From Gammaproteobacteria bacterium (GTDB taxonomy: Bacteria > Pseudomonadota > Gammaproteobacteria > SZUA-140), in contig JAKISP010000002.1 of the NCBI GenBank assembly GCA_021648525.1, positions 1 through 64,000 on the forward strand: a DNA stretch of 64,000 nt, in the 5' to 3' direction. Below, piece by piece: positions 10,536 to 23,742 of this stretch (position 1 is its first letter; every line of letters begins with the position of its first letter). Position numbers and translations under genes: made by a program. The notes below the pieces were generated by a model. The model was not told the origin of the DNA and made no database searches. It saw only the letters and a list, made by a program, of their open reading frames with translations.

Positions 10536-11849
10536 ATGACAAACCTTGCGATCCAGATTAAAGGTCTGACCAAGATCTACCCCCCCGATAACCGCGCCGT
10601 TGATACCCTTGATCTTGAAATTAAAGAGGGTGAGATCATGGCGCTGCTCGGCCCGAATGGTGCTGGTAAAAGCACCACTATCCGCGCCGCCTCAACCCTG
10701 TGCGGCTTCGATGAAGGCAGCGTTGTAGTTGCTGGCTTCGATGTCGACACCCACTCGCTTGAGGTACGCCAGGCGATCGGCGTGGTAGCACAACAGACCG
10801 GCATCGACTATTTCCTCACCGGACGCGAAAACATGGTGCTGCAGGGACATCTCTACCGGATGAAGAAGGCAGATATCAATGACCGTGTTGCAGAACTGGC
10901 CAGCTACTTCGAGCTTGACAACAGCATCGACAATCTGGTCAGCACCTATTCCGGTGGGATGCGCAGAAAACTCGACATCGCCTGTGCGCTGATCCATCGC
11001 CCTAAGGTTTTATTCCTTGATGAACCGACCCTTGGGCTAGATATTAAAAACCGTAAAATTCTATGGACGCATATCGACAAGCTGAATAAAGAGTTTGGCC
11101 TAACGATTCTGCTAACGACTCACTACCTGGAAGAAGCAGATAATCTTTCTCACCAGGTCGCGATCATCAACAACGGTAAGGTGCAGGTTGTTGATACACC
11201 CGATGCATTGAAGAACAGTATCCATGGCGATTCCATCACCGTAACCTTTGATGATGTTGGCAAAAACGAGCAGGCATTTTTTCACTTTGCACAGCAACAA
11301 TCTTATATCAAAGGTTCAACCTGGGAAGATAACAAGCTGCATCTGTATGTTGAAGATGGCGGCGCCAACGTTGCCGCGTTAATGGCAGTCGCAGCAGACA
11401 ATAAGGCACAGATCACTAACCTGTCACTATCACGCCCAACATTAGATGATGTCTTCCTCAAATACACTGGCTCCAGCATTTCAGACACCAGGGAAGAAGA
11501 AGGCGATGAATGGTGGAAACAGTGGGCTGGCAAAGGTGGTAACACAGGTAAATGGAAAAACCAGTGGGGTGCTAACGACAGTGACGCTGAAGAGGGTGGC
11601 GAAGACCAGGCATGGAAAAATAGTGACTGGGCAAAAAACAGTGACAACAACGAAAACCTCGGCACGCAAAAAAGAGAAGAAGCACAATCGCAGCAAGATG
11701 CATGGCCATCAGGACAGCAGCAGTGGCCAGACAAAGAAGAGAGTCATAATCCCTCTGGTGAGCAAGGTTCACAGCAGTGGGATCAATCACAACAAGGTGA
11801 TTGGCAAAATAATGAATGGAACAAAAACAAAGACGGCGGAGAGAAATAA
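10536..11849 (+). CDS. ABC transporter ATP-binding protein with Trp/Gln/Asn-rich tail
   Basis: Residues 1-310 form a DrrA/NatA-like ABC ATPase: Walker A GPNGAGKST near 39, Q-loop VAQQTG near 86, signature YSGGMRRKLDIA near 140, Walker B KVLFLDEPTLGLD near 157, and switch His in LLTTHYLEEAD. From about residue 325 to 437 follows a hydrophilic low-complexity tail dominated by W, Q, N, G, D, E, K (WWKQWAGKGG, WKNQWG, WPSGQQQWPD, WQNNEWNK). I know of no such tail in the family. The permease starts three bases after its stop, so the two form one exporter; the substrate is unknown. Confidence 0.92.
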   Translation: MTNLAIQIKGLTKIYPPDNRAVDTLDLEIKEGEIMALLGPNGAGKSTTIRAASTLCGFDEGSVVVAGFDVDTHSLEVRQAIGVVAQQTGIDYFLTGRENMVLQGHLYRMKKADINDRVAELASYFELDNSIDNLVSTYSGGMRRKLDIACALIHRPKVLFLDEPTLGLDIKNRKILWTHIDKLNKEFGLTILLTTHYLEEADNLSHQVAIINNGKVQVVDTPDALKNSIHGDSITVTFDDVGKNEQAFFHFAQQQSYIKGSTWEDNKLHLYVEDGGANVAALMAVAADNKAQITNLSLSRPTLDDVFLKYTGSSISDTREEEGDEWWKQWAGKGGNTGKWKNQWGANDSDAEEGGEDQAWKNSDWAKNSDNNENLGTQKREEAQSQQDAWPSGQQQWPDKEESHNPSGEQGSQQWDQSQQGDWQNNEWNKNKDGGEK

Positions 11850-11852
11850 TCC

Positions 11853-12605
11853 ATGCTCGCAGATACATGGCACCTATTTAACAAATACATGCGCATCACC
11901 ATGCGCATGCCGATGTGGACCCTGTTCACACTGATCCAGCCACTAATCTGGCTGCTGATTTTTGGACAACTATTTAAAGACTTTGTACAACTGGGTGATG
12001 AAGACTACATGGCATTTATGGTACCCGGTATATTGGTAATGACGGTACTGTTTGGCTCTTCATGGTCCGGCGTCAGTTTATTACGTGAGATCACTGCTGG
12101 CACCATCGACAAGATGCTGGTCTCACCTGTATCACGCATCGCCATAGTACTGAGCCGCGTGTTGCATTCATCTGCACAGGTGATTGCGCAGGCATTCATT
12201 ATGTTGTTCGTTGCATGGATACTCGGCGCTTCACTCAATATGAATCCTGTCTATTTAATGCTGGCGATGTTAATTGTCTTTCTACTCGGTGTCGGTTTCG
12301 CTGCGCTCTCCAATGGCTTTGCGATTGCACTGCAACGCGAAGAGCCTCTGGTGATGATCGGCAATCTGATGACCTTGCCACTGATTTTCTTTTCGTCCGC
12401 CCTGGTACCAGAGCAATTTATGCCTGACTGGATTCAATTGATTTCAGCAATCAATCCAATCAGCTATGCAGTTGATGCCATCCGCGCCGTACTTAGCACC
12501 ACACCCGATCTAGCAGTCTTTGGAAAAGGGTTACTGGTATTAACAGTATTTGCGGGTGCATCACTAACCTGGGCGGTTACCGCATTTAATGCATTAAGAG
12601 ACTAA
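11853..12605 (+). CDS. ABC-2 type transporter permease
   Basis: This 250-residue inner-membrane protein has six predicted spans arranged as in ABC-2 permeases of the DrrB/NodJ type. Visible features are the PLIWLLIFGQLF first span near residue 30, MVPGILVMTVLFGSSW near 53, a KMLVSPVSR coupling segment near 87, and the FFSSALVPEQFMPDWIQ segment near 185 that precedes the last span. It is the partner of the preceding ATPase. Exporters of this kind move drugs, polysaccharides or lipids out of the cell; this one cannot be assigned from sequence alone. A terminator-like repeat follows at once. Confidence 0.92.
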   Translation: MLADTWHLFNKYMRITMRMPMWTLFTLIQPLIWLLIFGQLFKDFVQLGDEDYMAFMVPGILVMTVLFGSSWSGVSLLREITAGTIDKMLVSPVSRIAIVLSRVLHSSAQVIAQAFIMLFVAWILGASLNMNPVYLMLAMLIVFLLGVGFAALSNGFAIALQREEPLVMIGNLMTLPLIFFSSALVPEQFMPDWIQLISAINPISYAVDAIRAVLSTTPDLAVFGKGLLVLTVFAGASLTWAVTAFNALRD

Positions 12606-12616
12606 AATTCCTCATC

Positions 12617-12654
12617 ACTCTATAACAATATATTAATACCTATTGTTATAGAGT
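12617..12654. terminator. Bidirectional terminator overlapping a gene end
   Basis: ACTCTATAACAATA (12617-12630) pairs perfectly with TATTGTTATAGAGT (12641-12654). It lies between the convergent ABC permease gene and the TPR gene. The TAG stop codon of the TPR gene (12622-12620) lies in the left arm, so its last codons are part of the hairpin. The T run on the plus strand is short and interrupted. Confidence 0.65.
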
Positions 12655-15406
12655 TTCTTTCCGCACCCGCCAAAGAAGTACTCTGAGTTCGAAAACCTGC
12701 ATTAAATGCTTCTTGCGTTAATGTTGTGCGGATTCCTAAATTTGAAATTGTCTTAACAAAAGAATAGTTCCCAAAAAACCTCATTTTTCTGCTTATCCAA
12801 TAAGAAAAACCACTCGACAACGTATGGGCTGTTTGTCTTCTATAAGCCTGTAAGGCTGTAAATGTATCAAGGTTATTATAATTATTAAGCGAATAGGCAT
12901 AACTCATGTTAACTGAAAAACCACCTCGATACTGACGATTGAATCTCAAATTAATCCTATGATTACGGTAAGCATAATCGCTGGCTATCGCTTCTATATT
13001 TTCATTAATCAGATAGCTATAACCCACATTAATAGTCGAACGATCATCAAAGCGCTGATTAATGTCAACCCCCAGGCGATAGGACTCTGAGCTGAAAATA
13101 CTATTTGTAATCGAATCAAAGCGCGTCTGTGCAAATGAGTATGTAAATCCAGTCATGATTTTCTCTTCGGAAAAGAGATCATAAATTTTCCTGAATTTAG
13201 CTCTGGTCATCACTTCAGCAAAAACAAGGTCTGTCGTACTACTTCGCCTTTCTGTCATCAACCCTTGTGAGCTACGTTTAGTCACTCCACCAACAATAGT
13301 ATACCGTCCTGGCGTAATCGTTGCTGACAGACTATTACTTATGTTCAGGAAATCAAATTGCCCCTCATGATAGGTCGAGTATGTAGGCGATGATGTAAAA
13401 CGCAGCCGAAGACCGCTCTGAGTTTTGTACTGATAGGCTAAATTAAATGACATATCCGAACGAATTTCAGCACCTAAGCTTGTAATAGTATCATCAGCCA
13501 CAGAATTGTCATCATAACCTATGGAGTACCCCATGCTGAACGTCATCCCTTTAATTTTTTTCTCTGTTGCGAACAGCCTCGCTTTAACATCATTTGCGAG
13601 CTCTTCACTCGGATTTTCCTGTAAAATTTTACGATATTCGCTAATCGCATCTTCCTCTTGATTTAATCGTTCAAGCGTCCCCGCGAGATTCAAACGTGCA
13701 CCGAAATTTTCTGGTGAAATTCTGATTACACTTTCATATGTATCAACCGCCTTTAAAAAAGACTCTTCACGTGAATAAATAGAACCAAGGTAAAAATACG
13801 GCATCACATTATTGGGTTGATCTGCAATGATACTTTTAAATGCACGCTCCGAATCCCCTAGTTTACCATCGCTAAACAGCTTCTTTGCAATGACCATTCG
13901 AAGAGAAGCCCCTAGAGCTGCTGCTTTTACAGGGTCAACTTCAAGCATTATTGCTGTTGCATATGCAAACATGGAATCTTCATACTTATTAAGGTCATCA
14001 GCTAAAGCAGCCTTTATACTGAGAATTTTCAAGTTCCAGGGGCCATACTTGGCGGCATTTAACAAATATTTATATGCCTCTTTTTTACGGTTCTTTTGCA
14101 TATAAAATTGCGCTAATCTAAAGTACGCCTCGACATCGGTAGGATGAGTGCTAATCCTGTCTAAAAGAAACTCTTTAATAACCTCTGTTTTTTCAGTAGT
14201 ACTCATCGAATCAAATAAAGCGCCTCCATTATTCGTCTTACCACTAATATTGATTAATGCTTTATTAGCTTCAGCAGCATATTTTGTACCAGCGCCCTCA
14301 ATAATAATTTCTTCTAATAAATCGATCGCATGCCCAATTTTTTTTGTCATTGAATAAAGCCCTGCAAGCTGAATTTTTGCCTCTAAATGCCCCGGTACAA
14401 GTGCCAATACCTTTTGATATTTTTCTTCGGCCAATTCAATTCTTCCCAACGATGAAAGTGATCTTGCCATCAACATAAGAGCAGGTATGTTCTGAGCATT
14501 TAAATCAATAACATCATCTAAAATTTCCAGAGCATCCTGATGATTACCGCTAGACGCGATAAGGTTTGCTTCAATCAGCCCTAAGCGCACTCGGGCCCTC
14601 TTTCCAATTTGACTTTCAGCATCAAGCACAATGATTTTCTCAAGGCTTTCAATTGCCATCGCTATCTCTCCTCGAATTTCATAAATACTAGCGAGATTCA
14701 GATAAGCATTGACATACCGAGGGTTCAACTCAATGACTTTTTCAAATTCGAGTTTAGCCTCATCCATTTTCTTCAAAAAGAAGTACCCAAGCCCAAGGCT
14801 ATAGCGTATCAAAAAATCATTCGGATATTCTTGTGCCAAACGTGAAAATACAGGCAATGCGCTTTGAATCTTTCCGTTGCGTGCCAGCTTAGTAGCAGTC
14901 AAAAAATCCACCTTCTTGATTGCCTCCTTATAATCTGCTGAACCCGGAGTAGCCATCTCACTAATAAGCCTGTAATTCCTTATAGCATTGTCATATTCCA
15001 TTCTAAACTCATACGAATAAGCCAGAGATTTTCGAAACTTAATATTTTCAGGTGATAATATAATAGCCTGCTTTAGATACTCAACCCCTTCATGAAAACG
15101 CCCCATACGTACTAGAATTACACCTGTTTTCGCATGACCTTCAGCATTGCTCTTATCTATTGATAAAACTCGAGCCAGTAAATCAAGCGCAGCAGAAAGA
15201 TCGCCAGACTCAAATTCTCGCTGAACCTCATCCAGAATTTTAGACACTTCCACTGTATTTTTCTGCAACTGATTTTCATCATCAGCCGCATATGCTGTAT
15301 CTAACGCAGATAAAAAGATCAGCAGTATTAGTGAAGGAGCAAGTAAAAGCATTACATAACCAACATCAATAATAGATATTGATTTTGAATAACGCACGCC
15401 AGCCAC
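12620..15406 (-). CDS. TPR protein with predicted C-terminal outer-membrane barrel
   Basis: This 928-residue exported protein begins with a hydrophobic signal region (about residues 15-41, ending ...DTAYA). Residues 50-610 are a chain of tetratricopeptide repeats, for example AEGHAKTGVILVRMG, NAYLNLASIYEIRGE, PYFYLGSIYSRE. From about 625 the character changes to alternating aromatic strands (FSMGYSIGYDDN, LRLRFTSSPTYSTY, INVGYSYLIN, GFSVNMSYAYSL) and a final ITIGINILL, which suggests a beta-barrel of roughly 12-16 strands. TPR-plus-barrel outer-membrane proteins include exopolysaccharide secretins and Slam-like lipoprotein exporters, but this one is longer and I cannot assign it to either. 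It overlaps the preceding gene by 41 bases and ends the envelope operon. Confidence 0.85.
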   Translation of the reverse strand: MAGVRYSKSISIIDVGYVMLLLAPSLILLIFLSALDTAYAADDENQLQKNTVEVSKILDEVQREFESGDLSAALDLLARVLSIDKSNAEGHAKTGVILVRMGRFHEGVEYLKQAIILSPENIKFRKSLAYSYEFRMEYDNAIRNYRLISEMATPGSADYKEAIKKVDFLTATKLARNGKIQSALPVFSRLAQEYPNDFLIRYSLGLGYFFLKKMDEAKLEFEKVIELNPRYVNAYLNLASIYEIRGEIAMAIESLEKIIVLDAESQIGKRARVRLGLIEANLIASSGNHQDALEILDDVIDLNAQNIPALMLMARSLSSLGRIELAEEKYQKVLALVPGHLEAKIQLAGLYSMTKKIGHAIDLLEEIIIEGAGTKYAAEANKALINISGKTNNGGALFDSMSTTEKTEVIKEFLLDRISTHPTDVEAYFRLAQFYMQKNRKKEAYKYLLNAAKYGPWNLKILSIKAALADDLNKYEDSMFAYATAIMLEVDPVKAAALGASLRMVIAKKLFSDGKLGDSERAFKSIIADQPNNVMPYFYLGSIYSREESFLKAVDTYESVIRISPENFGARLNLAGTLERLNQEEDAISEYRKILQENPSEELANDVKARLFATEKKIKGMTFSMGYSIGYDDNSVADDTITSLGAEIRSDMSFNLAYQYKTQSGLRLRFTSSPTYSTYHEGQFDFLNISNSLSATITPGRYTIVGGVTKRSSQGLMTERRSSTTDLVFAEVMTRAKFRKIYDLFSEEKIMTGFTYSFAQTRFDSITNSIFSSESYRLGVDINQRFDDRSTINVGYSYLINENIEAIASDYAYRNHRINLRFNRQYRGGFSVNMSYAYSLNNYNNLDTFTALQAYRRQTAHTLSSGFSYWISRKMRFFGNYSFVKTISNLGIRTTLTQEAFNAGFRTQSTSLAGAERNSITIGINILL

Positions 15407-16268
15407 TCATATCAAGCTCCATCTTTTCATAACTTCCATCATCGGCTAGATAACCCAAATTTTGACTACCATCACTGGCAGCTCCTGTAGGGTACTGTAT
15501 CGATACCGTATCCTGAGGCTGGAAATCATTATTAACTTGAGCGCTTCCTAGCTGAAATTTATTCAATCCAATGACATACCCCACATCAAAACCCACAGAC
15601 AACCAATCACGCATGAAAATTTCACCACCTATCGCAGGTTGAAACATCAGATGCCCAGTCGCCTGAGTGTCAAGCTTAGTTATTCGTTTAAATGTTATAT
15701 CGCTATCAGAGGGGTCTGTGAATTCAAATACAAAGCTTTCGCGAAAATCGATATCAAAAACTTCATTTAACATCAATCGACTATAAATTTTGTATTTTTT
15801 ATGTTTCACAAACAGATCTCGACGCCAACCAATGTAATATTGTAAATATGACATGTTCGCGCGACGTTCATAGACGGTGTCGACAAGCCGCCCCTGAAAG
15901 GGCAGTGTTGTTTTCACCAGCGATGAACCACCGCCTTCCCACGAACTCAGGCCAATCACAAAATGATTTTTCTGATCGATCTCCATTTGAAACTCAAGCC
16001 CAGCTTCAGTCCCAAAACGTATTTGGGTAAGTGGGTTATCTACGCTATAACGAACCTGACGGGGGCCGTCACCATCTGAAAATAAAAGCTCACCTGTTAT
16101 TGGTAGTTTTGCTCCTAGTACTTTGTCGTTAATAAGCCCAAGATCCGGCTTATGTATCCCTAAAATGGGTGACACGCTCCAACGAACTTCGGCAGCAACC
16201 AGGCTACCTGCTATTGCAAACACAATAAAGATAATTGCCAGTAAATTTTTGATGTCTAAACTCATCAA
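15366..16268 (-). CDS. Exported outer-membrane-like protein of unknown function
   Basis: This 300-residue protein has a signal peptide at residues 1-27 (IIFIVFAIAGSLVAA). The mature part alternates polar and aromatic residues (VRWSVSPILGIHKPD, EFQMEIDQKNHFVIG, SYLQYYIGWRRDLF, KIYSRLMLNEVFD, EIFMRDWLSVGFDVGYVIGLNKF) and ends ALFKINIYY, an aromatic C-terminus typical of Bam-assembled barrels. I infer an 8-10-strand outer-membrane protein. It starts two bases from the RND gene's stop codon and overlaps the TPR gene, so all three are likely translated together. No named family is recognised. Confidence 0.75.
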   Translation of the reverse strand: MMSLDIKNLLAIIFIVFAIAGSLVAAEVRWSVSPILGIHKPDLGLINDKVLGAKLPITGELLFSDGDGPRQVRYSVDNPLTQIRFGTEAGLEFQMEIDQKNHFVIGLSSWEGGGSSLVKTTLPFQGRLVDTVYERRANMSYLQYYIGWRRDLFVKHKKYKIYSRLMLNEVFDIDFRESFVFEFTDPSDSDITFKRITKLDTQATGHLMFQPAIGGEIFMRDWLSVGFDVGYVIGLNKFQLGSAQVNNDFQPQDTVSIQYPTGAASDGSQNLGYLADDGSYEKMELDMSGWRALFKINIYY

Positions 16269-16269
16269 G

Positions 16270-18762
16270 CTAAACAGCCTTGCTTTGGCGCCCTGAATTA
16301 ATTAGTGTAAGAAATAACGGTAATAACACTAATGCAGCAATACAGCTAACAACCATATACGAACTCACAAACGCGCCAAGCTTAACATGTGGCGGAAATT
16401 GAGAGGCTAGTAACACCATAAAGCCTGCTGTAACCACTGCCGCATTGAAAACAACAGTTTTACCAACACTTCTCATCGACTCGACAATTGCATCATCATG
16501 TTTTAGTAAGTTTTTACGCTCAAGCCTGTATTTAAATAAATAATGCACAGCATAATCTACACCAACACCAATCGCTACCCCAGCAGCCAGCGCAGTGGAA
16601 ACGTCCAACGGAATACCCATGAATCCAATGCCCCCAGCAATCACCAAAGTGGTTACAGTAACCGGTAGAACTGTTAGCAATCCAAGAATCACAGAGCGGA
16701 AAAGTATGATAGCCATTATTAAAATTCCAACTTTCGATAGCAACACGGCCATCACCTGACTATCAATTAATAATTCAGCCCAGATATATGAGTTGTTTGC
16801 AGACCCCGCCAGATTAACCTTAACATCAAAGCCAGACATTTCACGGTCAACATAATCATTTACTTCAGCAATAATTTCTTTCAGGTACTGAGTCTCATCA
16901 GTTTTTATAAGAAATGAAACATTAGCCTGGCGGTAGTCATAATCAATCACTTCGTCTAATTCATCGGGACGACCAGACATAGATAACAGAAATAAAAACT
17001 CATTGATCTCAGCTTCTGTATCAGGCAATCGATCATACGCAATATCACCTGAATGAAGATTTTTATTAACGCTTTTAAGGTAATCAACAATTGAGATTGA
17101 ATCGCCCACTAACAAATGTTTTTCTACCTGCTGCTGCATACCTTCAATTTTTCTCAGTAGCTCTGGAGACTTAAGTGCACCCGGTGATTTGCCTTCAACA
17201 ACCACATTCAAAAAAATAGCACCATCCATTCGATCATTAATCAGGTCATTAGCAATAGATACATCGCTCTCTTTACTAAAGTCACTCATCCAGCTCGAAT
17301 TAACATACATTTTACTAGCACCGAATGCCGATACAATTAAAAATAGTAACGTAACGGTCAAAATAATTTTACTATTTTTCGTCGAATACTGGCCCCAGGT
17401 TGTTAGCAATCGAGCAACACCACTATCTTCATCATGCACTCTTAAGGAACGTTTCTTCTTTAAATAATCACCGACCTTTGGCTTCATCATCGTCAGGATG
17501 GCAGGCACCAGCACCACCGATAACAACCAGCAATAGGCTATTCCCAGCACTGTAAATAAACCAAAAATTTTGAATGGTGGCATTTCTGAAAATAGCAATG
17601 CCAGGAAACCAATAATCGTCGTTATTGTTGTCGTTATCAGTGGTGGTGCAAGCTGAACCATTACACCCGTCACTATTTCACTTGACTGACCATAGGGGTT
17701 CTTAAGAACATGGTCGTAGTAACGACTCATGACATGCATTGAATCACCAATCCCTACTGCTACAAGTATCACCGGTAACATAGTTGAGATGGTGTACATT
17801 GGGACATTCAAAAATGCCATCGTACCCATAGTCCAAATGACAGCACAGCTAATTACCAACATCGGAATAAGCACGCCACGCCAGGTACGATAAAAAAAGA
17901 ACAACATGACACCAAGCACAATAAATAGAAGCGGGATCATCATCTGAATATCTTTCAGTGCACTTAACCCTGAACTAACTTCGATCACCGGGCGGCCAGC
18001 CATATAAAGCATGTCGCCATTTTCATCTGCAGTGACTATTTTTTCCAGGTTATCGGGTTTCATTCCATTAGGCCACTCCCCCTTCTCGGTACTGGGCACT
18101 ACTGGTTTGCTATCATCCCATTCCCCACCATTCCATTCTGATGAATCACTCCACCCCCCACCCCAATCACTATCAAGTCCACGCTCGCTGTCTAGCATCG
18201 TCTTAATTGCCCAATACGTACTATACCTGTTAGCAATACCTTCCTTTAACTTCGCTCTGATTATGGCTATTTTGCCATCTTCTGAAATAATATTGCCAAC
18301 AAACAAATCAGCATTACGCTGAATCGTATTGCGTAGCTGATCAAAACCTTCTTTTGTCGATGGAACATCACGCATAATACGTTCCGAACCTAACGTATCA
18401 TCATCACCAACAAATGCACTTGCAGTAGCAATCGACATCACATCAATCACCCTGTTGGCCGACACACCAGGAAGGTTAGCCACCTGCTCTGTAATACGGG
18501 CAATCCTGTTCAGCGTCTCTGCGTTATATACACCCTTTTTTTCATTTGCGACTGCAATCAATATAGAGTTTTTTACACCAAAAATATCCGCCACAATCTC
18601 ATCATAAATGATAGCGTGATGACCTTTGGGTAAATAGACCCTGGCATCGGTTTCCCATTGCAGCTTATCTATCTGCATTGCACAAAATACGGTAAATAGC
18701 ATTAAAGTACCCACGATCAATTTTGGGTAGCTAACTACATATCTATATAATCTATTCCACAT
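16270..18762 (-). CDS. MMPL/RND-family transporter
   Basis: This 830-residue inner-membrane protein has two repeated units, each with one span, a large periplasmic loop and five more spans. Sterol-sensing/MMPL signatures are visible: VAVGIGDSMHVMSRYYD in the first half and AAGVAIGVGVDYAVHYLFKYR in the second, with the Asp used for proton coupling. It resembles single-chain HAE-3/MMPL exporters that move hopanoids, pigments or lipids. The first periplasmic loop contains an unusual Trp/Gly/Ser/Asp-rich insert (DWGGGWSDSSEWNGGEW, about residues 198-215). The gene lies between a DUF1302-type gene and two outer-membrane-like genes, suggesting an envelope-spanning export route. Confidence 0.92.
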   Translation of the reverse strand: MWNRLYRYVVSYPKLIVGTLMLFTVFCAMQIDKLQWETDARVYLPKGHHAIIYDEIVADIFGVKNSILIAVANEKKGVYNAETLNRIARITEQVANLPGVSANRVIDVMSIATASAFVGDDDTLGSERIMRDVPSTKEGFDQLRNTIQRNADLFVGNIISEDGKIAIIRAKLKEGIANRYSTYWAIKTMLDSERGLDSDWGGGWSDSSEWNGGEWDDSKPVVPSTEKGEWPNGMKPDNLEKIVTADENGDMLYMAGRPVIEVSSGLSALKDIQMMIPLLFIVLGVMLFFFYRTWRGVLIPMLVISCAVIWTMGTMAFLNVPMYTISTMLPVILVAVGIGDSMHVMSRYYDHVLKNPYGQSSEIVTGVMVQLAPPLITTTITTIIGFLALLFSEMPPFKIFGLFTVLGIAYCWLLSVVLVPAILTMMKPKVGDYLKKKRSLRVHDEDSGVARLLTTWGQYSTKNSKIILTVTLLFLIVSAFGASKMYVNSSWMSDFSKESDVSIANDLINDRMDGAIFLNVVVEGKSPGALKSPELLRKIEGMQQQVEKHLLVGDSISIVDYLKSVNKNLHSGDIAYDRLPDTEAEINEFLFLLSMSGRPDELDEVIDYDYRQANVSFLIKTDETQYLKEIIAEVNDYVDREMSGFDVKVNLAGSANNSYIWAELLIDSQVMAVLLSKVGILIMAIILFRSVILGLLTVLPVTVTTLVIAGGIGFMGIPLDVSTALAAGVAIGVGVDYAVHYLFKYRLERKNLLKHDDAIVESMRSVGKTVVFNAAVVTAGFMVLLASQFPPHVKLGAFVSSYMVVSCIAALVLLPLFLTLINSGRQSKAV

Positions 18763-18798
18763 AAAAAACCTTTCCTAAGCTGGCCTGGCTTCAGACCA

Positions 18799-20283
18799 TT
18801 AGAATGTATATTTAAACTCCATAAAGAGTCTTGAGTTATTACGAAAATTGCCAAAAAACTGCGCACTTTGCACACTTGTATCAGCTTGATTACCAAAGAC
18901 TCGCCCATTTTGAGCTTCAACACCTAACCTCGATGAGCGGCCATAAAATATATCCATCCCTGCACCAACCTGAAAATGGTCTGTTACATCAAAAATTATT
19001 TTAGGTTTTAGATAGCTTTCTCGCGCATTCAAGACATTAATGTATAACATCTGAAATACTGCTGATTTTTCTGGCATCGGTTTCCGTATAAAAAGAGCCA
19101 ATGAGGTGTCAAATTTATCCTGAAAGAGAACTGAATTATAATCGAGGATTATCCATTGAGAAATTGCAGGTGAGATATCCATCCCCCACTTATTAAAATC
19201 CAGTCCCAATCCCCATCGAACATGCCTTTTTTGTAAAATTCCATCTGAATCTAAAAAATTATCGCCATCAACATCTGAATCATTTTTTAACCCAAAGTAT
19301 TTATCTGGCACATACACGAACTCACCTTTAATAATATTTCCACCTAAAGGTGAAACAAATGTTGCGCCGTACATGGTTAATCGTGAGTACGTAGGGAAAA
19401 ATGTTGGCTCTATCGTGCTACTAATTTTTGATGACCTGAAGACAACAGGAAAATCATCCCATGTATACAAATAACTCAAACCAACCTCCACCCCCAGAAT
19501 TTCCTTTGTATATCTAATGCCAATTTCAGCATTTTTTAACTTACTTGCACTAGGTTTTGTAGTCGCAGGCACATTTTGTAATAATTCCCACTCAGAACCT
19601 GGAGGCGCTGGCTTATTGAACTGTAAATCAGGTATCCACAAAAACTGCCATGTATCTTCTTCACGGTAGTAATCTATTTTTGCAGTCCATAGCGGAATTC
19701 TATAATCTAAAAGATCAGGCAATATCATCTCACGAAAATCCATCGGATTAATTTCATCCGTTATTCGCATGCCTTCAAGTACCCCCCATACGACAAATTG
19801 TTTGCCCAGCCGCACATCCATGTTATCGGTAAATATATCTAGATAAAGCTCCCTTATTTCAGCCACAGGGGAGTCCTTCTCTTGCGCCAGGTTATCAACA
19901 AATACGAGCGGCTGATCTTCATCCCGCACATGTCGTGCGGATATTGTTTCATAGTCAAACAAATCATAAGCATGGTCATAATATGCCCAGGCTGATACGG
20001 TCAGTGATAAGTTTGAGCTTGCGGAGTATTGCCCGCCCAGCGACAGGATATTTCGTATTTTGGTTATCGACCTGGGTTCCTGGTAGCGATACGCAGTTTC
20101 ATTTTTCATAAAACCATTAAATGTCCAGTCATCCCAAAACCCATCAAGCAAATTGCTTTCACCTTCTGCCCTGATATTATTCGGTGCGACAAGAGACATT
20201 GCAGCTAAAAAAACCACGAGTCGTATCAAATTTTGGCGCTTAATAATCAGCCAATTCCCTCTATTGTCTTGCATTTCTTGCAT
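18799..20283 (-). CDS. DUF1302-type outer-membrane protein
   Basis: This 494-residue protein has a signal region at about 20-40 (LVVFLAAMSLVAPNNIRA). The mature part is a predicted beta-barrel with segments characteristic of the DUF1302 family: ISARHVRDED, REL-YLDIF, DVRLGKQFVVWGVLEGMRITDEINPMDFRE near residue 150-180 and DYRIPLWTAKIDYY. It ends with the aromatic strand RLFMEFKYTF. DUF1302 genes are often found beside RND transporters and LolA-like or DUF1329 genes, as here. The start overlaps the end of the preceding regulator gene by 37 bases, so the two are probably translationally coupled. Confidence 0.85.
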   Translation of the reverse strand: MQEMQDNRGNWLIIKRQNLIRLVVFLAAMSLVAPNNIRAEGESNLLDGFWDDWTFNGFMKNETAYRYQEPRSITKIRNILSLGGQYSASSNLSLTVSAWAYYDHAYDLFDYETISARHVRDEDQPLVFVDNLAQEKDSPVAEIRELYLDIFTDNMDVRLGKQFVVWGVLEGMRITDEINPMDFREMILPDLLDYRIPLWTAKIDYYREEDTWQFLWIPDLQFNKPAPPGSEWELLQNVPATTKPSASKLKNAEIGIRYTKEILGVEVGLSYLYTWDDFPVVFRSSKISSTIEPTFFPTYSRLTMYGATFVSPLGGNIIKGEFVYVPDKYFGLKNDSDVDGDNFLDSDGILQKRHVRWGLGLDFNKWGMDISPAISQWIILDYNSVLFQDKFDTSLALFIRKPMPEKSAVFQMLYINVLNARESYLKPKIIFDVTDHFQVGAGMDIFYGRSSRLGVEAQNGRVFGNQADTSVQSAQFFGNFRNNSRLFMEFKYTF

Positions 20284-20690
20284 ATAATGACGTGATTTTT
20301 TCCTGGAATAATTCCATACACAACCTCTGTGCCTTTATTTAACTTTTGGCTACAGTGCTCACATGACATTTCTTTATTTAAAGTCAAGCGATCCCATCCG
20401 ATAACATCATCAAATCCCCCCTTGTTATCCACAACTGACTCACTGGTCACCTGTGATATATCGTCAACTGTTTGATTGTCTATATAATCCGTTAAAATAT
20501 TTCTTATCAAAATAGAAACGGGAATTCGAAGTTCCTCTGCTTTTAGAATGATCTTTTCGCGGAGCTGCTTTGATACTCTTGCTCCAAGGTACTCTTGCTT
20601 TCTTTTAGCCGCTGTTGCTAATGCTTGCTGCCGCATCGAGCTCGCTCGCTCAGTCGCCATTGCCCGCATATCATCACGTCTATTTTCCAT
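20247..20690 (-). CDS. Small DNA-binding protein (RHH-like) with C-terminal zinc ribbon
   Basis: This 147-residue protein reads in three parts: a basic, Arg/Ala/Met-rich N-terminus (1-30), a segment resembling a ribbon-helix-helix fold (GARVSKQLREKIILKAEELRIPVSILIRNIL, about 36-66), and a C-terminal zinc ribbon with CEHC near 109 and CKKC near 138. It is the first gene of the operon running to 12620, and a near-perfect 28-bp palindrome lies 36 bases upstream of its ATG. I infer an autoregulating repressor of the envelope operon; the zinc ribbon could sense metal or redox. No characterised homologue comes to mind. Confidence 0.75.
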   Translation of the reverse strand: MENRRDDMRAMATERASSMRQQALATAAKRKQEYLGARVSKQLREKIILKAEELRIPVSILIRNILTDYIDNQTVDDISQVTSESVVDNKGGFDDVIGWDRLTLNKEMSCEHCSQKLNKGTEVVYGIIPGKNHVIICKKCKTIEGIG

Positions 20691-20725
20691 ACCCGCCTCC
20701 TAGTCTATTAATTAATCGCAGTATA

Positions 20726-20753
20726 ACATTGTATAACACATGTTATACAATGT
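20726..20753 (-). promoter_or_regulatory. Palindromic operator candidate before the regulator gene
   Basis: ACATTGTATAAC (20726-20737), spacer ACAT, then GTTATACAATGT (20742-20753): two perfect 12-base arms. An additional GTATAAC lies just left (20721-20727), and the core TGTTATACA recurs inside the terminator at 20782-20798. The position, 36 bases before the ATG of a ribbon-helix-helix-like protein, is what an autoregulatory operator would have. Confidence 0.7.
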
Positions 20754-20773
20754 CAATTAAGGGGGATTGCCCA

Positions 20774-20798
20774 TAAAAAAAGCCATGTTATACATGGC
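20774..20798 (-). terminator. Terminator of the LolA-like gene pair
   Basis: On the minus strand GCCATGT, loop ATA, ACATGGC is followed by a run of seven T (20781-20775). It stands 28 bases past the stop codon of the 303-residue LolA-like gene and separates that transcript from the regulator-led operon. Confidence 0.8.
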
Positions 20799-20826
20799 CT
20801 TACAGAGGAGATTTCACTAAAGTGCT

Positions 20827-21738
20827 CTATCGAGATTTCAAATTAAAACCAGACTTCATTGCTCTTTTTGAAAATTGACGCTTACTCAGGCCAGTATCAA
20901 CCCTAACATCCGACATCATAAAAACTGACTCATGTCGCTCCTGTACATCAGTCACGACAACCCGATCCCACATCCAGGCCCCTTTCACCCTCTGCCAATT
21001 AAGCAGCTGCTCTTTCAATAAAACACCCTTAACATCGTAATAAGCAATTTTCTTCACAAGGCAGTTATCCCAGCCATCATCTCCAACATCCTTCTCAATC
21101 CAGAATAATCGCTTTGAATATATCTCACCCTTTACCGTGCGGGGCGTGCTCTCTACCTTGTGCAAAGATACACCAGCAATAACCTCTTTTCCTATATAAA
21201 AATGCTCATCCTCATCAATTCCACGATAACTAACATCCTGGTATGTTAAATCCGAGTTTAAAAACCTGTCGCCAGGATCTCGAATCGTCACCCTACGAAT
21301 TTTTCGGAGCACAGGCAAATATATCCATTGTTCAGCTACTTTTTCTGACTCAGGGATATACGTAGTCCGCATAAATGCCCCCCCTTTTGAATCAGGAGGA
21401 AACGTTGAAAATAACATCATTTTCTCCAGAACCTGCCCCTCACCGTCATAATCCTTCCAAAGTCGCAAATACACGCTTTTCTTTTCATTCCCGCCAGAGT
21501 CTTTCAGCACAACCGTGAATGTCGATACCTGATCTTTACCTGCATACTTATACCCGCACTGAGACATCAACGACTTACCCGTTAGCACATCAATCTCACT
21601 TTGAGTTTCTGCTCTAACACTCCCTGTCGGGATTAAAATAAGCAGGACCACAGCAATCCAGAAGAACCGCTTAACCACCTCGCGGCCTATCAAGGCATAC
21701 GCATGGACACACAATCCAATTAGCTTCAGCCACCTCAT
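20827..21738 (-). CDS. LolA-like outer-membrane lipoprotein-sorting protein, paralogue 2
   Basis: This 303-residue exported protein has its hydrophobic segment at about 25-42 (FFWIAVVLLILIPTGSVRA). The true start may therefore be nearer residue 20 than the first ATG. The mature part matches the LolA-like family (PF17131 type): KDSGGNEKKSVYLRLWKD, FSTFPPDSKGGAFMR, WIYLPVLRKIRRVTIRDPGDRFLNSDLTYQD near 140-170. Such half-barrels carry lipids or lipoproteins across the periplasm. It lies 16 bases after its paralogue at 21755 and shares many of the same blocks. Together with the nearby RND and DUF1302 genes it suggests a lipid-transfer role. Confidence 0.88.
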   Translation of the reverse strand: MRWLKLIGLCVHAYALIGREVVKRFFWIAVVLLILIPTGSVRAETQSEIDVLTGKSLMSQCGYKYAGKDQVSTFTVVLKDSGGNEKKSVYLRLWKDYDGEGQVLEKMMLFSTFPPDSKGGAFMRTTYIPESEKVAEQWIYLPVLRKIRRVTIRDPGDRFLNSDLTYQDVSYRGIDEDEHFYIGKEVIAGVSLHKVESTPRTVKGEIYSKRLFWIEKDVGDDGWDNCLVKKIAYYDVKGVLLKEQLLNWQRVKGAWMWDRVVVTDVQERHESVFMMSDVRVDTGLSKRQFSKRAMKSGFNLKSR

Positions 21739-21754
21739 TTATTTATCATCCTTT

Positions 21755-22612
21755 TTAACCAGCCCCCTTTAGTGCCCGGGGCCCCACTCGTAAAGTTCTC
21801 GCTGAAAAAAACTCATCCTTCAGGCCAATATCAACATCAACATCACCAATAACAAATATTGAAACATTCCCTGAAATCATATTTCGAACTAATACGCGAT
21901 CCCAAACCCACGCCCCATTTACTTGCTGCCACTTATTAAACTGGACCTTAGAAAGCACTCCATCCTTTGTAAAATAGTCAATTCTCGCACTGACACAAGC
22001 ATCCCAGCTCTCACCCTTTAAATACCATTGAATGCGCTTACTATAATTACTCGGGCCAACCGGCACACTTTCAACTCGCAGGAATTCCATACCCTGCACG
22101 GACTTCACACCAAGAAATTTATGACTATCCTCAGAAAGAGCCCGCTGCCCCACATCTGCGTATGTTAAATCTGAGTTCAGAAAGCTATCACCAGGGTCTC
22201 GAATAGTCACTCTTCGTATCTTTTTTAACAGCGGCAAATATATCCACTGATCAGCCGTTTTTTCAGCCTCTGCAACATATGCAACCCGCATGAAGGCCGA
22301 GCCAACCGCATCTGGTGGATACTCTGTAAAAAGTAGCATTTTATCAAACACACCGCCCAACCCAGCATAAGCCTTCCAATAACGACGGTAGACACTACGT
22401 TTCTCTGTTCCTTGCAGGCTATTTTGCAATATCACTGTCAATCGTGAACGCTGATCATCTCCAGCACTCTTGATCCCGCAGGAAGCGACAATACCTGCCC
22501 CTGTTAACGCCTCGTCAGCCGCCTGCACCCCGTTCACAAAACAAGGAACTATCAGCAACATAAAAGCTGTCACACGAGAAAACATTCTTTTTATAAACTT
22601 ATTTCTCAACAT
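21755..22612 (-). CDS. LolA-like outer-membrane lipoprotein-sorting protein, paralogue 1
   Basis: This 285-residue exported protein has a signal peptide at about 8-31 (VTAFMLLIVPCFVNGVQA). It carries the same conserved blocks as its neighbour: IVASCGIKSAGDDQRSRL, FTEYPPDAVGSAFMRVAY, WIYLPLLKKIRRVTIRDPGDSFLNSDLTYAD around 125-155. Two divergent copies in tandem suggest either two cargoes or a heterodimer. A Cys (VASCG) shortly after the signal peptide is conserved in both copies, with a second Cys later (WDACVS here, WDNCLV in paralogue 2), so a disulfide is possible. The region between this gene and the terminator at 22678 is very AT-rich and may hold the promoter. Confidence 0.88.
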   Translation of the reverse strand: MLRNKFIKRMFSRVTAFMLLIVPCFVNGVQAADEALTGAGIVASCGIKSAGDDQRSRLTVILQNSLQGTEKRSVYRRYWKAYAGLGGVFDKMLLFTEYPPDAVGSAFMRVAYVAEAEKTADQWIYLPLLKKIRRVTIRDPGDSFLNSDLTYADVGQRALSEDSHKFLGVKSVQGMEFLRVESVPVGPSNYSKRIQWYLKGESWDACVSARIDYFTKDGVLSKVQFNKWQQVNGAWVWDRVLVRNMISGNVSIFVIGDVDVDIGLKDEFFSARTLRVGPRALKGAG

Positions 22613-22677
22613 GTCCTATCAATACACCCTCAAAAAATAAAAATAAAGCGGATCAATAAAATACTTAACTATAAAAT

Positions 22678-22704
22678 AAAAAAGGGGCCAAAGGCCCCTT
22701 TTTT
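22678..22704. terminator. Strong rho-independent terminator after the secreted-protein gene
   Basis: AAAAAAGGGGCC, loop AAA, GGCCCCTTTTTT: a perfect 12-base stem with tails on both sides. It follows the stop codon of the 334-residue secreted protein by 33 bases, so that gene is probably transcribed mainly as a single cistron. Confidence 0.92.
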
Positions 22705-22737
22705 ATCATTCCACACTCACTACTAATATAGACTAGC

Positions 22738-23742
22738 CTACAAAGCTGGCTCAACCCCAAAAGTAGTGCTATCCCATACAAATGGCGTACCCGCACCAAA
22801 TGCTGCAGTACTAGTAGAAAAAGTGCTAATTGGTGCATCTGTATCAGATAGATTATCAACACTCTGAAAGCCAAAAACAGCACTTCCAGTGCCACCCAGA
22901 TTAACGCGCTGCCCCAGCCAGGTAACCAGAACATCTTCTCCCGCAGACCAGTCCACAGAACCACCTGTTCCGGTACCTGCAGAAGGCGTTCCAAGCTCAA
23001 GTGAACCAGTACTAGTCAGAAGATCGCCACTACGCTGACGAATCACAAAACGCTGAAAATCATCACCGACGACAGTCGCACCAGGATCGCTCATACCAAC
23101 ATCCTGCAACATATCCATCCTTTTTCCTGTCTGCTCTCCAGAGGAATCAAGATTAACGTCCAACGTAAATTCATTCACAAAATCATCAGCAGTTTCTGTG
23201 GCGCCAGTAGCACCAATTGCAATACCGGTATTACTGTTATCTCTAAAGCTTTGAGTAATCTTCAAATTAGCATCATCACCGTGATCTGTTCCTTGCGCCC
23301 AGGTGCCAATTAACAGCTGAGTTGTCGACTCAAAGAGATTGCCACTTGTGTCGGCAGGGTTGAGAATCGTAGGATCATCTCTCAATCTTTGCATCGCCTT
23401 GATGCCATTATTAGCGCCCGACATCTGAATAAAGGTCATATCAGAAAAAGCAAGGCCTGACACATCTAAAGCAGTACTCGCATTTGAACTCAAAGGATCA
23501 ACAATGATTGTTTGAATAAAAGTGTTGCCACCAATCGTAACTTCCTGCTGTAAAAAACCTTCGCCAGTGACCAGAGGTACACATACAGCTCCGGCAGCAC
23601 AACCAGAAAGCGTACCTGTTGAACCTGCGTTGACTTGAATACCATCAAAACCCGGACCACCAGCCATAGCACTACCAATCGGCAACAGTGCTGCTGTCGC
23701 CCCTACCAATGCCAAACCTCTTACTATATTTCGAATCTTCAT
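22738..23742 (-). CDS. Secreted/exported protein of unknown function
   Basis: I place the start at ATG 23742 (MKIRNIVRGLALVG), behind an AGGGGG ribosome site; the frame extends 14 codons further upstream without one. The 334-residue product has a classical signal peptide (about 1-27, ending GSAMAGG). The mature protein is acidic and rich in Gly, Thr, Ser, Asp and small residues, with beta-rich stretches (ITQSFRDNSNTG, FTLDVNLDSSGEQTG, FQRFVIRQRSGDLL, DVLVTWLGQRVNLGG). It lacks a PEP-CTERM or LPXTG end. The strong ribosome site and terminator suggest abundant expression. Upstream of the RND/LolA/DUF1302 genes it could be a cargo or a surface protein; this is inference. Confidence 0.75.
   Translation of the reverse strand: MKIRNIVRGLALVGATAALLPIGSAMAGGPGFDGIQVNAGSTGTLSGCAAGAVCVPLVTGEGFLQQEVTIGGNTFIQTIIVDPLSSNASTALDVSGLAFSDMTFIQMSGANNGIKAMQRLRDDPTILNPADTSGNLFESTTQLLIGTWAQGTDHGDDANLKITQSFRDNSNTGIAIGATGATETADDFVNEFTLDVNLDSSGEQTGKRMDMLQDVGMSDPGATVVGDDFQRFVIRQRSGDLLTSTGSLELGTPSAGTGTGGSVDWSAGEDVLVTWLGQRVNLGGTGSAVFGFQSVDNLSDTDAPISTFSTSTAAFGAGTPFVWDSTTFGVEPAL

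Follow-up and report, generated by a model that had tools for sequence, protein, structure and literature searches.

Two described systems share sub-sets of their parts with the locus reported here, and the parts themselves belong to known families. AmeABCD of Castellaniella defragrans, a determinant of hydrophobe tolerance, combines a pump of the resistance-nodulation-division (RND) superfamily and HAE3 type with a DUF1302 protein, a DUF1329/LolA protein and a YCF48-like protein (PMC6394551), and export of phthiocerol dimycocerosate (PDIM) in mycobacteria requires each of MmpL7, DrrA/B/C and LppX (PMC11539658). In Thalassolituus, TOL_3187 and TOL_3188, encoding an MMPL protein with a LolA-like domain and a porin-like protein, are induced on the C28 alkane (PMC6304351). 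The substrates and exits of most HAE3 cassettes are unassigned, and how hydrophobic molecules handled by RND/LolA-type systems traverse the periplasm and outer membrane of Gram-negative bacteria is an open question. Here we analyze a 64,000-nucleotide stretch of a gammaproteobacterial genome (contig JAKISP010000002.1; hereafter the window) that carries a locus of ten genes spanning both membranes. The locus provides a naturally linked list of parts: candidate exits, an ATP-binding cassette (ABC) partner, a near-exclusive secreted protein family and a regulator preceded by a candidate operator. With it, the question can be tested one gene at a time.

We propose, with a probability of about 0.52, that the locus encodes a trans-envelope exporter of a hydrophobic molecule, either a lipid or a lipid-like compound and possibly an O-methylated metabolite. 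This proposal is based on the families of the parts, their conserved order and co-occurrence, the retained proton-relay aspartates of the pump, the likeness to PDIM export and AmeABCD and an O-methyltransferase in related loci; the operator before the regulator gene also counts in its favor. Export of a lipid or other hydrophobe is our best guess from composition. A DrrAB-type ABC pair and a proton-driven MMPL/HAE3 pump would pull the molecule from the inner membrane, LolA-like proteins would shield it through the periplasm, and a DUF1302 barrel, an outer-membrane-like protein (OMP) and the 14-stranded barrel of a tetratricopeptide repeat (TPR) protein would deliver it into or past the outer membrane. 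Outside, members of a secreted protein family (SEC) might act with the molecule as binder, coat or co-exported partner, and the regulator (REG) would repress its own five-gene operon through an operator in the promoter, perhaps until relieved by a metal or ligand signal.

Conserved composition, order and co-occurrence

An original prediction made from the sequence alone had described eight envelope genes on one strand, led by their own regulator, as a candidate route for lipid or lipoprotein export. All eight are minus-strand genes found at the positions claimed, in the transcription order SEC, LolA2, LolA1, REG, DUF1302, MMPL, OMP and TPR-barrel. They are not the whole set, because the conserved unit extends past position 12620 to a convergent ABC pair at 10536-12605 (Table 1). 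The prediction had missed this exporter, along with the tryptophan-rich segments, the operator and the distribution of the SEC family described below. A strong terminator-like hairpin after SEC, a promoter before REG and the tight packing from REG through the TPR gene (overlaps or gaps of a few tens of bases) suggest three likely transcription units, namely SEC, the LolA pair and REG-DUF1302-MMPL-OMP-TPR. REG, which is fourth of the eight, can therefore be called the leader of the five-gene unit only. Lipoprotein export, the other half of the predicted function, was rejected, since no LolCDE or LolB is encoded in the locus and the carriers match PF17131 rather than classical LolA (DUF1329 is matched above the cut-off by LolA1 and at the cut-off by LolA2).

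Table 1. Position and character of each feature of the locus within the window.
Feature	Position	Strand	Remarks
SEC, secreted beta-rich protein	22738..23742	-	Signal peptide, two invariant Cys; family founder
Terminator-like hairpin (Rho-independent type) after SEC	22675..22707	-	15-pair stem, T-rich tail
LolA2, LolA_like periplasmic carrier	21755..22612	-	PF17131, E=8e-33
LolA1, LolA_like periplasmic carrier	20827..21738	-	PF17131, E=2e-37; solved relatives 9tp6, 3bk5, 4z48
Hairpin before REG	20801-20779		Marks, with promoter, a probable separate REG unit
Candidate operator TGTATAAC-ACAT-GTTATACA	20730..20749	.	Perfect inverted repeat inside REG promoter, overlaps -10 box
REG operon promoter TTGACA-17-TACAAT	20728..20756	-	Heads the five-gene unit
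REG, ribbon-helix-helix core + C-terminal CxxC..CxxC zinc ribbon	20247..20690	-	Probable autoregulator
DUF1302-type outer-membrane barrel protein	18799..20283	-	PF06980, 2.3e-16, above cut-off
MMPL, HAE3-like RND pump	16270..18762	-	Pfam MMPL 2e-33, clearly above cut-off
OMP, outer-membrane-like beta protein	15366..16268	-	~300 aa; diagnostic of system
TPR-barrel: TPR solenoid + C-terminal 14-stranded beta barrel	12620..15406	-	TPR repeats, structure model
ABC-2 permease, DrrB-like	11853..12605	+	Convergent with operon
ABC ATPase, DrrA-like	10536..11849	+	Trp-rich C-terminal tail; convergent with operon

A scan with the DUF1302 protein recovered 27 loci, all from gammaproteobacterial bins (one titled 'Proteobacteria') labeled Thiotrichaceae, Chromatiaceae, Ectothiorhodospiraceae or unclassified. 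Together with loci cut from searched genomes these gave 51 distinct loci, over which the order SEC–LolA–REG–DUF1302–MMPL–OMP–TPR-barrel recurred. OMP was directly followed in the same orientation by the TPR gene in 44 of them, DUF1302 by MMPL in 41, MMPL by OMP in 39 and REG by DUF1302 in 33, and the TPR gene converged on the ABC pair in 27; these counts are far beyond chance. The unit stays constant while its upstream flanks vary by group, consisting of nikR and moaE or of cytochrome c maturation (ccm) genes.

Co-occurrence was counted over one common set of 370 gammaproteobacterial genomes, 28 of which carry OMP. Close orthologs of the ABC permease (at least 57% identity and 289 bits, with the next best match at 135 bits) occur in exactly these 28 genomes. 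MMPL orthologs (at least 650 bits, the next match scoring 368) occur in 27, with only G297 lacking one, and the TPR barrel (E ≤3e-37) in 27, with only the fragmented assembly G095 lacking it. The SEC family is likewise present in 28 genomes and shares 27 with OMP. The odd one, G300, keeps SEC genes while lacking OMP, TPR, ABC, MMPL and a close DUF1302 ortholog, for which joint loss or an assembly gap is a candidate explanation. Naive probabilities of such overlaps are ~1e-38 or below. These counts are not independent, however, because all carriers fall in nine families and the distances between homologous parts track those of the flanking gene tsaD. The system thus looks like a clade trait kept by vertical descent and seems to belong to the core envelope equipment of a sizeable group of gammaproteobacteria, most of them uncultured. 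After correction for tsaD, MMPL and TPR distances show a partial correlation of 0.70, which hints weakly at contact between the two proteins.

Vertical descent might also have left weakly linked neighbors together through slow rearrangement in one lineage, with no joint function. The tracking of tsaD, the origin of every carrier from nine families and the partial synteny of the flanking genes are consistent with this explanation. We nevertheless consider it highly improbable, as the unit persists between wholly different upstream flanks, its genes overlap, they share a probable operator-controlled operon, and genes relocated to second loci still pair OMP with TPR or DUF1302. Linkage within a machine, with its inner-membrane pump, periplasmic carriers and outer-membrane barrels conserved and co-occurring as one set rather than scattered, had been predicted and is borne out by the 51 loci and 370 genomes.

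Every tested genome without MMPL in its main locus had an ortholog in a second locus. A second type of locus (L125, L049, L051, L066 and L135) has SEC upstream of OMP, in some cases with the TPR barrel too, and in several of these SBBP beta-propeller proteins and a distant SEC-like protein lie downstream of OMP. In two loci (L110:5279-5917 and L111:5218-5856), the TPR gene and the ABC pair are separated by an inserted gene of the FmdE family with a C-terminal zinc finger. In the genome of the window (G000), a single LolA_like gene directly adjoins corC and lnt, the gene for apolipoprotein N-acyltransferase, 14 kb beyond the window end (L071:13983-17305, equivalent to G000:C53:77983-81305), and L105, L106 and L109 also have LolA_like genes beyond tsaD, near the system.

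The TPR barrel and the SEC family

The AlphaFold2 model of the TPR protein (mean pLDDT, the predicted local distance difference test, 85.6) consists of a TPR solenoid over residues ~43-618 followed by a barrel of 14 strands, as the original prediction of a TPR-barrel had it. A fold search with this model returned only TPR-type proteins at the top of the list. Family matches of the barrel were mixed among the 15 members examined, with BBP2_2 matched in five and PF04575 in three (E up to 1; best 1.5e-4), and the window protein scored 15.4 bits against PF04575, below the cut-off of 22. Membership in the Slam/type XI family was therefore rejected, and the type XI system is retained as a working analogy only. 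Polysaccharide export of the PgaA/BcsC type is disfavored because the barrel counts 14 strands instead of 16 and a synthase is lacking; BcsC likewise has a 16-stranded barrel. The contrast of 14 and 16 strands distinguishes Slam from PgaA (PMC8406197). The window OMP matched no family, and OMP_b-brl was matched weakly by four of 21 OMP homologs.

We consider SEC the most informative part of the locus. The SEC protein of the window matched no described family. Among its homologs two cysteines are invariant and the core reads Gly-Phe-x-Gln; they occur almost only in machine-bearing genomes and number up to seven matches per such genome. Some proteins carry two SEC domains within 650-750 residues, and others have a SEC-like N-terminus, then beta-propeller or choice-of-anchor domains, and end in a GlyGly-CTERM-like tail (L163:5364-7940 and L175:4678-6393). 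SEC thus resembles a mobile extracellular module, one that probably belongs with the machine, either as its cargo or as a partner. A second SEC-family copy in G000 (L178:7615-8067, contig C57) encodes 150 residues, matching the family over no more than its N-terminal third, and is perhaps a broken gene. Modeling of SEC gave a beta-rich structure at low confidence (mean pLDDT 63), and a fold search with it matched no solved fold, such that the role of SEC cannot be read from its fold. Profile searches of the PDB with SEC, OMP and the barrel likewise gave nothing useful.

The main rival to export of a hydrophobe is that the TPR barrel and OMP move SEC proteins over the outer membrane in a manner like that of type XI secretion (Slam/DUF560), while the lipid-type parts modify, anchor or energize. 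SEC, OMP and the TPR barrel are common to 27 of the 370 genomes, loci L133 and L134 hold little beyond these three, the SEC paralogs are several per genome and some are two-domain, and a barrel of 14 strands with an N-terminal TPR domain is what type XI proteins have (PMC8406197). However, the Slam-family match is weak and less frequent than that of BBP2_2, SEC shows neither a fold match nor, in its low-confidence model, a clear C-terminal eight-stranded barrel, and the GlyGly-CTERM-like tails of some SEC-domain proteins point to another route. Moreover, G300 has SEC genes without the machine (barring an assembly gap), and such a scheme would have no need of the ABC pair and MMPL. We therefore regard secretion of this kind as rather doubtful, although it deserves to be weighed ahead of the other rivals.

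The pump, its substrate and its regulation

The best NCBIfam match of MMPL is HAE3 (TIGR00921; 3.6e-70), at 237 bits against a curated cut-off of 352. The window protein has the proton-relay aspartates in transmembrane helices (TM) 4 (GIGD) and 10 (GVD), and among its homologs the residue is kept in all 41 MMPLs at TM10 and in 32 of the 33 pattern-matched sequences at TM4. A tryptophan-rich insert before TM2, in periplasmic loop 1 (residues ~200-240 of the window protein), is present in all 49 MMPL records, and the ATPase of the convergent pair invariably ends in a tryptophan-rich C-terminal tail (residues ~320-437 in the window). The segments are of low complexity. Both segments are composed mainly of W, G, Q, N, D, E, K, S and A, with 8-9% tryptophan and few other hydrophobic residues. 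Motifs of the W-x-G-N-x-W type occur in MMPL and the ATPase and in none of 487 other open reading frames; a repeat of the WQGNEWV type is common to the two proteins in different species. The predicted sides differ, the MMPL insert being periplasmic and the ATPase tail cytoplasmic, and no link was found when the lengths of insert and tail were tested against each other. These segments invite a model of a novel type of envelope-spanning machine in which matching tryptophan-rich disordered segments on both inner-membrane faces tie the ABC exporter to the RND pump, which would feed LolA-like carriers and the TPR barrel and so bring lipid and dedicated SEC-domain proteins to the surface. We judge this model unlikely.

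G000 also contains four paralogous MMPL cassettes (L067-L070). Three of them (C32:51.0-55.5 kb, C44:42-46 kb and C59:22-26 kb) combine MMPL with LolA-like and DUF1302-like genes, and that at C31:45-52 kb is an AmeABCD-like set. None of the four has the tryptophan-rich insert, OMP, the TPR barrel or REG, and the MMPL paralogs of this genome show no comparable tryptophan density.

As to the substrate, the absence of a biosynthetic gene that was originally noted holds for the window but not for relatives. Eight locus records have an O-methyltransferase gene (PF08100/PF00891) interposed between SEC and LolA, and two further records retain only its last ~25 codons. A homolog with 41-43% identity is found elsewhere in most tested genomes, including G000. 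Because the gene sits inside the loci of relatives, it weakly suggests that the substrate may be an O-methylated small hydrophobe.

REG has a ribbon-helix-helix-like core with weak CopG/Arc-type matches and a CxxC...CxxC zinc ribbon. Alignment of the regions upstream of REG genes yielded a conserved repeat, TGTATAAC-n-GTTATACA, with arm spacing that varies from 3 to 14. Scanning the window with up to three mismatches gave two matches compared with 0.21 expected, and only that at 20730-20749 is perfect. At 14 or more of 16 positions the operator precedes 19 of 33 REG genes but only one of 405 unrelated genes; among 29 genes for the ABC permease it precedes none. The natural reading is that REG autoregulates through this predicted operator.

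A regulator with a promoter operator suggests induction, which would also suit a tolerance pump that, like AmeABCD, expels toxic hydrophobes of outside origin rather than exporting a product of the cell. The core families are the same, and deletion of AmeABCD lowers monoterpene tolerance (PMC6394551). Yet an AmeABCD-like cassette is apparently already present separately at C31 in the same genome, making detoxification less likely for the present locus, and near-universality in nine families together with an extracellular protein family would be unusual for optional efflux. Detoxification therefore seems quite improbable to us.

Several observations weigh against export of a hydrophobe itself. 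SEC, a protein family, is among the closest co-occurring partners, whereas a pure lipid exporter predicts none. The lipid pump is locally separable, as L133 and L134 hold only SEC, OMP and TPR and some loci have DUF1302, OMP and TPR with no adjoining MMPL. The window part of the locus has no biosynthetic enzyme, and relatives of AmeABCD can act in efflux too.

Relation to known systems

The full set, the SEC family, the operator and the tryptophan-rich segments were not found described in the open-access papers searched. Like type XI proteins (Slam/DUF560, PF04575; PMC8406197), the TPR-barrel protein has an N-terminal TPR domain, a 14-stranded barrel and a secreted-protein gene nearby. Unlike them, it has 500-600 TPR residues and a PF04575 score below the cut-off, and its putative partner lacks a TbpBBD-type domain match. 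The sterol transporters BstABC of Methylococcus (PMC10942540) and HpnN resemble the locus in that an RND inner-membrane protein and periplasmic and outer-membrane-associated partners handle a polycyclic lipid. In contrast, BstB is of the phosphonate-binding type and BstC is a helical, TPR-like lipid binder, and no LolA-like, DUF1302 or ABC parts are named for that system. The Thalassolituus module combines MMPL, LolA-like and outer-membrane proteins as the present locus does and resembles the simpler cassettes at C32, C44 and C59, but no REG, TPR barrel, SEC or ABC pair has been reported for it.

PDIM export brings an RND protein of the MMPL type, DrrA/DrrB-like ABC components and a LolA-like carrier (LppX having a LolA-like fold) to bear on a single hydrophobic product, and in this it corresponds to the locus at the level of family homology only. 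It belongs to another phylum and another envelope, and is not known to include outer-membrane barrels of this kind. Its genes adjoin biosynthetic genes, whereas the unit described here contains none for polyketide or lipid synthesis. The locus MMPL also keeps its relay aspartates, unlike MmpL7, which is reported to lack a proton relay (PMC11539658, PMC8427324). With AmeABCD the locus shares a DUF1302 protein and a periplasmic protein of the LolA superfamily in one cassette with an RND pump, which in the locus has HAE3 as its best NCBIfam match but scores below the cut-off. The YCF48-like AmeC has no counterpart in the unit, which adds to the shared core a TPR barrel, OMP, SEC, a zinc-ribbon ribbon-helix-helix regulator and an ABC pair that Ame, as described, does not have.

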